Assembly: GCA_947494085.1 (NCBI GenBank)
Contig: CANLTP010000006.1
Span: forward strand, 1-23,064
DNA length: 23,064 nt
Source of the DNA: Actinomycetota bacterium
GTDB taxonomy: Bacteria > Actinomycetota > Actinomycetes > Nanopelagicales > Nanopelagicaceae
Direction of reading: 5' to 3'
Shown: piece by piece, positions 752-3,104 of the stretch
Numbering within the stretch: position 1 is the stretch's first letter
Layout: each line of letters begins with the position of its first letter
Translations under genes and position numbers: made by a program
The notes under the pieces: generated by a model
Database searches by the model: none
What the model was told of the DNA's origin: nothing
What the model saw: the letters and a program-made list of their open reading frames with translations, nothing else

Positions 752-773
752 TGTCAGTGGCTAGTTATAAGTT
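752..773 (+). promoter_or_regulatory. RecA-NDp (PafBC-type) DNA-damage promoter of the short TPR gene
   Basis: The sequence reads TGTCAGTG (752-759), eight bases, then TAAGTT (768-773). This matches the published mycobacterial RecA-NDp consensus TTGTCRGTG-N8-TAnnnT except for its first base. In Mycobacterium this promoter class is activated by PafBC after DNA damage, independently of LexA. The element around it (740-760) matches 1627-1647 in 18 of 21 positions. The -10 is 32 bases before the inferred start at 800. Confidence 0.75.
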
Positions 774-799
774 AGGCATAAGTAAGGAAAGGAGAACCA

Positions 800-1327
800 A
801 TAGAAGATAACGACGATTATGAGGATGAGATTGAAGAAGGTCCAGAACTACTGGCTCAATCTCTATTCAACGTTGGAGTGGCTTACAGTCACTTAGGAAA
901 TTATCCCGAAGCTATCAACCAATATCGGCAGGCTCGGGAAATATTCAAAGAAGAGAAGATGGTTACCGAAGTTGGGCAATGCGATCTACATATCGCAGAA
1001 GCAAACTTTGAATCAGGAAATACCATCGAAGCAATTGCCGCAGGTAAGAAAGCAGTAGATGTAGCTTGGTTTACTTACGGCGATGATATGCACGCAAGAT
1101 CGCATATAGTTCTTATCAAAGCGTATTTAGCGCTCGGGGAATTAGAAGTTGCGGTCCGGCATCTTGTTGATGCCCAAGCTTTAGTAAATTTCACTACTGA
1201 TAAGGACTGGGAGCTCGTAGTAGAAGTAGAACAACTTCGAGCAGACCATATGAAAGCCGGCGGATTAGAAGCCGACACCACTGAGATCGATCGTCGACTA
1301 GCAACTATCCGAGAAATTCTCGGATAG
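800..1327 (+). CDS. Short TPR-repeat protein, apparent ATA start, paralogue of the gene at 1688
   Basis: The reading frame is open from 782 and coding-like from 800, although the first ordinary start codon (GTG 878) lies inside the first TPR helix pair. A strong Shine-Dalgarno (GGAAAGGAG, 786-794) is followed five bases later by ATA at 800, which gives 175 residues. The N-terminus is very acidic (EDNDDYEDE), followed by about three TPR-like helix pairs beginning near residue 18. Residues 18-170 align without large gaps to residues 147-297 of the TPR protein at 1688-2614, with shared GE...CD..IA and GN..EA blocks, so this is an N-terminally shortened paralogue. TPRs mediate protein-protein contacts; no catalytic domain is seen. 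If ATA is not used, translation would start at GTG 878 and break the first repeat. Damage induction is inferred from the promoter. Confidence 0.7.
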   Translation: MEDNDDYEDEIEEGPELLAQSLFNVGVAYSHLGNYPEAINQYRQAREIFKEEKMVTEVGQCDLHIAEANFESGNTIEAIAAGKKAVDVAWFTYGDDMHARSHIVLIKAYLALGELEVAVRHLVDAQALVNFTTDKDWELVVEVEQLRADHMKAGGLEADTTEIDRRLATIREILG

Positions 1328-1329
1328 TT
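1303..1329. repeat. Perfect 27-bp palindrome (13-bp arms) over the stop codon
   Basis: The left arm is AACTATCCGAGAA (1303-1315), the centre is A1316, and the right arm TTCTCGGATAGTT (1317-1329) is its exact complement. As RNA it would give an 11-bp stem with a five-base loop. It includes the TAG stop of the short TPR gene (1325-1327) and ends 14 bases before the Shine-Dalgarno of the zinc-ribbon gene. No T-run follows. Confidence 0.85.
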
Positions 1330-1352
1330 GGGCGGAAATTGTGGAGGAAAAG

Positions 1353-1613
1353 ATGAGTTCAAGGCAAAATAAAATTGATACCAAGTTAAGGGCGTCGGCT
1401 TGCCCTCGATGCGGAAAGGTCGAAGTACTGCAACCAATTATTTACGGGCTGCCTAATGAAGACTTTGATTTTGAAAATAATATTTCTGGCGGATGTTTAG
1501 TCGGTGGCTATATGCCGAATATCGGGTGCATCGAATGTGGATGGAAAGGTCTTCAAAATCCTTATACTGGGGAGATTATTGATAAAAATGCGGTTGATTT
1601 AGAGGAAGACTAG
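1353..1613 (+). CDS. Small zinc-ribbon protein
   Basis: An 86-residue protein. The ATG at 1353 is chosen because GGAGG (1343-1347) sits five bases before it; the GTG at 1341 would overlap that site. Two CxxC knuckles, CPRC (C17, C20) and CIEC (C59, C62), frame a YGLP motif (31-34) and a GGC at 46-48. That is the pattern of a small bacterial zinc-ribbon family (CPxCG...YGLP...GGC...C..CG). The protein is short, soluble and ends in acidic residues. It lies 25 bases after the short TPR gene and probably shares its transcript from the damage-type promoter at 752. Zinc binding is well supported by pattern; the cellular role is unknown. Confidence 0.75.
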   Translation: MSSRQNKIDTKLRASACPRCGKVEVLQPIIYGLPNEDFDFENNISGGCLVGGYMPNIGCIECGWKGLQNPYTGEIIDKNAVDLEED

Positions 1614-1638
1614 CTCGACACGAAGGCTTGCCCGGCAA

Positions 1639-1660
1639 TGTCAGTGGGGGTAAATAGGTT
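1639..1660 (+). promoter_or_regulatory. Second RecA-NDp (PafBC-type) promoter, before the long TPR gene
   Basis: TGTCAGTG (1639-1646), eight bases, then TAGGTT (1655-1660), matching TTGTCRGTG-N8-TAnnnT. The -10 lies 33 bases before the ATG at 1688, against 32 bases at the first copy, so promoter and gene appear to have been duplicated together. Confidence 0.75.
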
Positions 1661-1687: not shown

Positions 1688-2614
1688 ATGAAGAACGAGG
1701 ATGAAAAGTTAGAGGCCGAGCTTTGGGAGATGGCTTCTAAGGCTGATGGTGAAGAGAAAGTTGATGCGTTAATTCAATTGAGTTATCGCTCATTTAATCG
1801 CGGGGATCACGCGGAATCTTTGGCGTTGTGTGAGACGGCGCGGGATTTGTATGAAGCACTTGGTGCGAAGGCAAATACTTCGACACTTGCGCATATCTAT
1901 ACCGGTATTGGGTATTCGCTAAATAGATTGCGGCGGCACACTGATGCGGCGGCGGCTTTGGATCGCGCGGTTGTTTTGTATCGCGAGATTGGATCTACTG
2001 AGGCGATTGTGCAACTGCGATGCGAAGGTGATTCTTGGTATGACGCGAAGGAATATGAGAAGGCGCATGATGCGTATGTTGCTGCGATTAATGAGGCGAA
2101 TCCAGATGTTGCTGATCGCGAAGTTGCAATTAATTATGCAAATGCGGGAAGTGCGTTAATAAAGTTGAAGCGTTGGTCAGAGGCGCTGACGAATTTCTTA
2201 GCTGCGCGGGCGATTTATAAAACATTGAAGATGCCGGGTGAAATTGTGCACTGCGATGAAGAGATTGCACTCTGTTATTTCTGGCTGGGCAATGGCATGG
2301 AAGCTTTGCATCATGCCCAACTTGCAATGGACTTTGCAGATACTGCAGAAGATGAATTTCATAAGATGTGGGCGCTGGCTCGGATGGGTTTGGCAAAGAA
2401 GGTTTTGGAAGAGTATGCCGAGGCGCTGGATTTATTTGCTGATGCGAAGTCGCGGATGGTTCGGGTGGAGAATCCAAATTGGCGAGCGATTATCAAATTG
2501 GAACGTCAGGTTGCATCGATCCTTGTGATTAAGGGGCGGGTGTCAGAGGCGCAAGAAATCGAGCGACGCATTGCGTCAATGGCCGAGGTTGTCTTCGATG
2601 AGGGTGAAGAATAG
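1688..2614 (+). CDS. TPR-repeat protein
   Basis: A 308-residue all-helical protein made of repeated 34-40-residue TPR-like units with the usual A/G/Y/A pattern. Examples are ALIQLSYRSFNRGDHAESL near residue 27, IYTGIGYSLNRLRRHTDAAA near 70, and INYANAGSALIKLKRWSEAL near 148. It has no signal peptide, membrane segment or enzyme domain. ATG 1688 is preceded by AGAGGG. Its C-terminal half is homologous to the short TPR protein at 800-1327. The high content of GCG/GAT/TTG codons gives this gene a slightly different look from the transporter genes to the right. It overlaps the next gene by 17 bases. The promoter predicts DNA-damage induction. Its partner is unknown; candidates are the zinc-ribbon and secreted proteins beside it. 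Confidence 0.8.
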   Translation: MKNEDEKLEAELWEMASKADGEEKVDALIQLSYRSFNRGDHAESLALCETARDLYEALGAKANTSTLAHIYTGIGYSLNRLRRHTDAAAALDRAVVLYREIGSTEAIVQLRCEGDSWYDAKEYEKAHDAYVAAINEANPDVADREVAINYANAGSALIKLKRWSEALTNFLAARAIYKTLKMPGEIVHCDEEIALCYFWLGNGMEALHHAQLAMDFADTAEDEFHKMWALARMGLAKKVLEEYAEALDLFADAKSRMVRVENPNWRAIIKLERQVASILVIKGRVSEAQEIERRIASMAEVVFDEGEE

Positions 2615-3104
2615 CGACGTGAAAAAAGTTGCACTTGGGTTGGTTGTCGTAATGATTGCCGGGGCTTTGCTCTCGGGGATTGCTGGGATAACTGGGGCTG
2701 GCGTTGATCAGCCAAGTGAATCGGGTGGCGATTTAATTTCAATTGATGGCGTTTTATCTCAGGATGTTTACACATTTGTTTGTGAGATTCCAGAACAACA
2801 GAAGCCAGAGTTGGTTTATTTTGCTTGCGCAGATGGCAATGAAGGAATTGGAAAGATCGAATGGTCTACTTGGGAAGCGAGTGGTGCCCGCGGTGTTGGT
2901 GAGTATTTCGCTAATGATTGCGAACCGGATTGCGCAAGTGGAACTTTTGAGTTTGCAAGAGTGAATGTTGCAATTGATCGACCAATGGGCGTTGATGGCA
3001 AGGTGCATTTAGCTGATCTGACTTATGAATCAGTTGACGAAGGTGGCGTATCTGGGGCAATAAATCTTGCCGAGTTTTATTCGATCATGAAAGAGAACGA
3101 ATAA
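2598..3104 (+). CDS. Membrane-anchored or secreted actinobacterial protein, function unknown
   Basis: A 168-residue protein. ATG 2598 gives a short basic N-terminus followed by a hydrophobic segment (about residues 11-31), a signal peptide or signal anchor. It overlaps the end of the TPR gene, and GAGG (2585-2588) lies nine bases upstream. The exported part has four cysteines (C62, C77, C108, C112), likely two disulfides. The pattern CADGN...IEWSTW...GVGEYFANDC.P.CASG is that of a family of small actinobacterial secreted proteins, which I know only as uncharacterised. Translational coupling to the damage-type TPR gene is suggested by the overlap. An alternative start at GTG 2619 would leave the hydrophobic segment intact. 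Confidence 0.7.
   Translation: MRVKNSDVKKVALGLVVVMIAGALLSGIAGITGAGVDQPSESGGDLISIDGVLSQDVYTFVCEIPEQQKPELVYFACADGNEGIGKIEWSTWEASGARGVGEYFANDCEPDCASGTFEFARVNVAIDRPMGVDGKVHLADLTYESVDEGGVSGAINLAEFYSIMKENE

Follow-up and report, generated by a model that had tools for sequence, protein, structure and literature searches.

In mycobacteria and other actinobacteria, the PafBC regulon is marked by promoters of the RecA-NDp type, for which the accessible text of PMC5656591 gives the consensus tTGTCRgtg-N8-TannnT. According to the available part of PMC11804915, PafBC is activated by binding of single-stranded DNA to its WYL domains; the contact to the –26 element is made by PafB and that to domain 4 of SigA by PafC. 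Several genes of the regulon, recA among them, carry both an SOS box and a RecA-NDp element, and uvrA and uvrC are also named in connection with such double elements (PMC8223512, in the sections available). The 23,064-nucleotide stretch of actinobacterial DNA analyzed here (the window) contains two sites of this type in front of genes for tetratricopeptide repeat (TPR) proteins. Judging from sequence comparison, each site is likely to be a PafBC-dependent (RecA-NDp) promoter, and the TPR genes that follow probably belong to the actinobacterial DNA-damage regulon as accessory members. The features of the locus are as follows.

752..773, + strand: RecA-NDp/PafBC-type promoter 1, –26 element TGTCAGTG, –10 hexamer TAAGTT at 768-773 (exact match; relative L005 also has an exact site in front of this gene)
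788..794, + strand: AAAGGAG, a probable ribosome-binding site 5 nt ahead of ATA 800 (from the sequence; K/R-G-E/D at this place in six upstream-extended relatives, KGE in three of the six)
800..1327, + strand: TPR gene 1, paralogue of the C-terminal half, with a probable ATA start (Pfam, homology)
1353..1613, + strand: small zinc-ribbon-like protein, CPRCG...CIECG (from the sequence; homologues stand alone or fused to a trypsin-like protease)
1639..1660, + strand: RecA-NDp/PafBC-type promoter 2, –26 element TGTCAGTG, –10 hexamer TAGGTT at 1655-1660 (exact match; identical 22-mer in genome G002)
1688..2614, + strand: TPR gene 2, ATG 1688, 308-residue all-helical TPR solenoid of the accessory clade (Pfam, tree, structure model)
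2598..3104, + strand: small, probably exported protein overlapping the end of TPR gene 2 (N-terminal hydrophobic helix and conserved Cys/Trp/Gly domain)

The sites at 752-773 and 1639-1660 were the only exact matches to TGTCRGTG-N8-TAnnnT on both strands of the window, where 0.01 were expected. Two matches were reached in none of 100 dinucleotide shuffles, and the claim of the original prediction that both sites fit the RecA-NDp/PafBC consensus was thereby borne out. An A precedes TGTC at both sites, at a position where the full consensus has a T, written in lower case. The window signal consists of the two exact sites, because matches with two mismatches showed no excess (six found, 8.6 expected). 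The original prediction had also put the sites 32 and 33 bases before the gene starts and had pointed to similar flanks. The distances are correct when counted from the first –10 base (768 and 1655) to 800 and 1688, the former only if gene 1 starts at ATA 800; the flank identity of 18 out of 21 bases is likewise correct, though nine of these bases are the motif itself. The identity outside the motif (9 of 12 bases) and the missing excess at two mismatches would suit a chance likeness to RecA-NDp of an ordinary sigma-70 promoter or of some repeated element, a reading that we weigh below against the data from related genomes.

From its sequence, TPR gene 1 seems to start with an ATA codon behind a good ribosome-binding site; the first ATG, GTG or TTG past the preceding stop of this frame is GTG 878. 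The two TPR genes are homologous, as had been proposed, with 30% identity over 154 residues (E 3e-15). Within TPR2, the 175 residues of TPR1 matched the C-terminal half alone; inspection by eye showed the same for full-length relatives such as P0163. Pfam TPR_12 scored 54.1 bits for TPR2 and 50.2 bits for TPR1 (cut-off 30.1), and the predicted model of TPR2 was an all-helical solenoid with a pLDDT of 94. Repeats above the Pfam cut-off together with a helical solenoid place these proteins in the TPR superfamily, while Pfam returned no catalytic, DNA-binding or HTH domain for them. The zinc-ribbon-like protein had no Pfam match; its gene is probably on the same transcript as TPR gene 1. The exported protein is characterized by the domain pattern CADG..I.W..W...G.G....N.C.P.CA.G, and its model combined a hydrophobic N-terminal helix with a beta-rich domain.

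At the start place of TPR gene 1, relative L005 likewise has ATA, and six upstream-extended relatives (P0144-P0148, P0152) have Ile, with variable residues before and conserved residues after it. Positions 40-678 of the window encode a Cys-rich protein of 212 residues, for which Pfam gave no match. Its homologues occur near TPR genes at four other loci (L153, L155, L169, L170), and at L169 a one-mismatch motif starts 90 nt before the homologue. TPR2 is encoded at 90–95% identity on five MAG contigs from genomes of 0.9–1.3 Mb. Three of these contigs are titled Actinobacteria; the two labelled Bifidobacterium breve (L002, L004) have a TPR2 that is 93–95% identical, in genomes of 1.2–1.3 Mb, and the label looks wrong. 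Going by some isolate names, the bacteria carrying accessory TPR genes appear to be lake-dwelling actinobacteria, putatively freshwater Nanopelagicales (acI).

A search of the family revealed TPR2 homologues in 138 of 151 genomes. Upstream regions were compared in a set of 73 rows, made up of the window, two named contigs, 30 loci of the 151-genome search and 40 further chosen places, which were second copies and mostly long single contigs. The motif, allowing one mismatch and a distance of up to 250 nt, was present in 16 of the 73 rows (10 exact), while the reversed pattern was found in none of the same 73 regions. This control and the shuffles rule out that the sites arose by chance. In the tree, the 16 rows comprised 15 of the 21 members of the window's clade and the long-branch row L130; two of the 16, L127 and L130, have weak sites and long branches. 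Counted by type, 16 of 22 accessory homologues had the motif versus 0 of 51 core homologues, with the reservation that such counts are not independent events because the sampled loci are often related. The motif is thus confined to the accessory clade, the widespread core TPR paralogue is devoid of it, and a motif common to all TPR homologues can be dismissed. Three of the other accessory rows had it 0.9–1.1 kb upstream, before a protease gene preceding the TPR gene (exact in L001 and L024, one mismatch in L025); L003 (723 nt of upstream sequence available), L034 (about 70 nt) and L032 (two mismatches) were without a near site.

A second search with a different accessory TPR query against 296 family genomes yielded 14 matches at E 1e-60 or better, ten of them new compared with the 73 rows. 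At these ten further loci the motif was exact in eight and had two mismatches in two, so that the recurrence before TPR homologues in related genomes, proposed as a check in the original prediction, was indeed observed. In an alignment of 14 upstream regions, which takes in L270 (111 nt) and L276-L278 (one to two mismatches), the mean pairwise identity was 0.94 in the specified columns of the motif and 0.54 in the LexA box, as compared with 0.23 in the remaining columns; the 66 of these that were filled in 80% or more of the rows gave 0.57. In the ten-region subset without L270 and L276-L278 the values were higher, with 100% in the motif, 90% in the LexA box and 40% in all other columns. A search of 394 genomes drawn from the class gave no accessory-type TPR gene outside the family: the seven matches above 425 bits all lay in genomes from the family search and the other matches listed all had at most 269 bits.

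The original prediction had called the promoters LexA-independent. This is true of the window, where no LexA box (CGAACN4GTTCG) was found at up to one mismatch near either TPR gene, but not of the clade, because relatives carry exact LexA boxes. Eight of the 22 accessory TPR loci had an exact box 114–157 nt upstream, whereas none of the 51 core loci had one even with one mismatch allowed. The ten further loci contributed six exact boxes, and one of the others has only 111 nt of upstream sequence. In three single-contig genomes the LexA box started 83–84 nt before the PafBC-type site. The boxes are independent evidence for a putative damage role of the accessory TPR genes, under a double control resembling that of recA.

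As a positive control, the upstream regions of 26 recA loci were searched (four of 30 were left out, since the match was partial or at a contig edge). The motif was detected in 23 of the 26 with up to one mismatch, an exact LexA box in all 26 and the reversed motif in none. The LysM gene divergent from lexA, which by reading stands upstream of an nrdR-like gene, had both the motif and a LexA box in the five genomes looked at; we take its product to be of the ChiZ/YneA type. Adjacent WYL (PafB/PafC-like) pairs were present in 28 of 30 related genomes, one of them cut by a contig end, and were missing from G003 and G152. Among the five genomes with a TPR2 of 90–95% identity, four have the pair and the fifth, G003, is without it. 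The single PafB compared, that of G001, matched the PafBC structure 6sj9 (1e-35). The absence of PafBC genes from the host, which would speak against the assignment, is therefore not what the relatives display. In G014 no exact site was found in the genome despite a WYL pair.

The recurrence of the motif, the pafBC-like pairs of the relatives and the recA and LysM controls jointly support the proposed tie of the TPR block to the DNA-damage response. They also bear on the reading as an ordinary promoter or repeat with a fortuitous resemblance. Flanks diverge between clades while the motif is kept, the reversed pattern is absent from the upstream regions, recA and the lexA-side LysM gene carry the same motif, and LexA boxes co-occur with it. 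We consider that reading very improbable.

Over 25 genomes, a sample somewhat enriched because genomes with TPR sites were included, 87 exact sites were counted versus 25 matches to the reversed pattern; some of the 87 are expected to be single sites that happen to precede unrelated genes. Five genomes gave 17 exact sites versus 3. Among the products of genes after these other exact sites are the LysM protein, a DnaQ-type exonuclease, CarD, DNA methyltransferases and Rce1-like proteases; at 210–330 nt there are also genes for NlpC/P60 proteins and a DnaE-type polymerase. Pfam assignments were made for one representative per gene type and for two Rce1-like proteins.

Several details of these genes were recorded. 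Rce1-like (CAAX/CPBP) intramembrane proteases lie behind sites in L154 (2986), L181-L183, L216 and L221, assigned by Pfam for L154 and L181 and by reading for the rest. A membrane-anchored trypsin-like protease lies behind the motif in L170 (1085-2122), L171 (1665-2513, one mismatch), L172 (7223-8071) and L156 (4449-5276), and was once found fused to a zinc ribbon. An exact site precedes the gene for CarD, an RNA-polymerase-binding regulator, by 24 nt in L185, L189 and L191 (Pfam for L185). Exact sites also precede DNA cytosine methyltransferase-like genes in L017, L201, L204, L215 and L222 (Pfam for L215), at a distance of 8–18 nt in four genomes and 279 nt in L204, which may link modification to damage. 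A protein of about 115–131 residues is encoded after exact sites in four genomes (L180, L208, L212, L214), the one of L208 being without a Pfam match. Close relatives differ in the order of the genes that follow the promoter, which has been reshuffled.

Where a genome is available as a single contig, its accessory TPR genes were situated in variable stretches that hold further exact sites. For instance, four of the six exact sites of G021 fall within 30 kb (427985-457178) and four of the five of G066 within 43 kb (414718-457195), both stretches ending at the lexA/LysM locus. In G087, five of the seven exact sites are on contig C100. The accessory TPR genes are often island-borne. Their neighbours in relatives include NERD-helicase, T5orf172/MUG113, DNA methyltransferase and helicase genes. 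These neighbours speak for another reading, in which the TPR genes are part of an anti-phage defence or abortive-infection set; single-stranded DNA is exposed during phage replication, and the damage regulon could in this way sense infection. PADLOC matched neighbours in relatives to RTasNERD-Hel (1e-30) and to a PbeA-like helicase (6e-41), the membrane trypsin-like protease to RT-Protease_XI (1e-9) and PDC-S45 (2e-8), and the T5orf172 protein to PDC-S57 (1e-7). However, none of the five window proteins run (TPR1, TPR2, the zinc ribbon, the exported protein and the 40-678 protein) gave a PADLOC match, and the neighbours change from one genome to the next, with the promoter remaining at the TPR gene. 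A defence function of the TPR genes is rather unlikely on this balance.

The exported partner is a variable companion as well. At 21 loci it overlapped or directly abutted the TPR gene in 11 cases (one a fragment), was 1 kb off in one and divergent in one, and was absent beside the TPR gene in eight; at the ten further loci, some on short contigs, it was beside the TPR gene in one and missing in nine. The motif stays where the partner is missing, which excludes that it is tied to the partner and not to the TPR gene. Since the partner comes and goes, what stays constant is the promoter together with the TPR gene. These figures can be read in two ways for the idea that the TPR proteins are damage-induced envelope or division checkpoint factors whose effector would be the exported protein, in a role like that of the LysM protein or of Caulobacter DidA. 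The close coupling at about half of the 21 loci fits it, as do the envelope-facing genes behind the motif (LysM, NlpC/P60, Rce1-like intramembrane proteases and the membrane-anchored trypsin-like protease). On the other hand, the partner is lacking at the loci just given, its model matched nothing in the PDB at E < 0.001, and genes without an envelope function (recA, the exonuclease, methyltransferases and CarD) stand behind the motif too. We regard the checkpoint idea as possible, though doubtful.

Returning to the preferred assignment as PafBC-dependent promoters, we propose the following course of events. Damage or replication trouble would expose single-stranded DNA, and PafBC loaded with it would redirect the housekeeping RNA polymerase to the TGTCAGTG/–10 promoters. 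Two short transcripts would result, one for TPR gene 1 and the zinc ribbon and one for TPR gene 2 and the exported protein, with putative operon limits. In many relatives LexA would add a second, SOS-controlled input, as at recA. Damage induction of the TPR genes is predicted here from promoter sequence. The TPR proteins themselves may be cytosolic adaptors with variable partners whose target during damage belongs to the envelope or the cell cycle; we propose this because no catalytic domain was found and because they look like peptide- or protein-binding solenoids, so that the suggestion derives from the modelled fold alone. More tentatively, streamlined freshwater actinobacteria might use the PafBC promoter, in some cases together with a LexA box, as a plug-in control of rapidly changing, island-borne non-repair effectors, namely TPR adaptors with exported or membrane-protease partners. 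If true, this would amount to a damage- or phage-triggered envelope, arrest or defence response apart from DNA repair.

Several described systems can be set beside this locus. The nearest structural neighbours of the TPR2 model were the TPR domains of LGN, Rap/RapI and kinesin light chain (TM by query length mostly 0.5–0.7, E 3e-9 to 3e-6), which are protein or peptide binders; at 13–17% identity to TPR2 this is a resemblance of fold only. With the Rap/RRNPP peptide sensors, which have an effector or HTH domain and a cognate secreted peptide, the similarity observed is likewise one of fold, no HTH being among the Pfam matches. In the SOS-independent DriD-DidA checkpoint of Caulobacter, regulator and promoter differ from the PafBC type. 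As in the case proposed here, a WYL-type regulator drives a damage-induced non-repair gene there (PMC4211646, PMC12340889, as far as their text was available). DidA, however, is a division inhibitor (PMC4211646, same portion), and the TPR proteins are only candidates for such a role. Genes with both an SOS box and a RecA-NDp element are closer, since the same pair of elements precedes the TPR gene in many relatives; they differ in that the TPR proteins are by their domains not repair enzymes and in that the window is without a LexA box. The double control by LexA and PafBC in relatives makes the prediction of a damage role strong and cheap to test.

Among the best matches in the open-access literature, none dealt with PafBC in freshwater actinobacteria or with TPR genes as part of the PafBC regulon. 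A damage-linked role is thus suggested for a gene family that, where named at all, is named only TPR repeat or hypothetical protein, and the findings suggest that the PafBC regulon reaches past repair into variable, partly envelope-facing genes. With the RecA-NDp/PafBC regulon as described in mycobacteria and further actinobacteria the present one shares the consensus, the PafB/PafC-like pair and recA as a target. It differs in that its members here are accessory and often island-borne, and in that the portions of the literature at hand do not list TPR genes, the CADG-type exported protein, the zinc ribbon or Rce1-like proteases among the members. The TPR genes would accordingly represent a new membership in the known PafBC regulon, a regulatory assignment that is well supported by sequence comparison.
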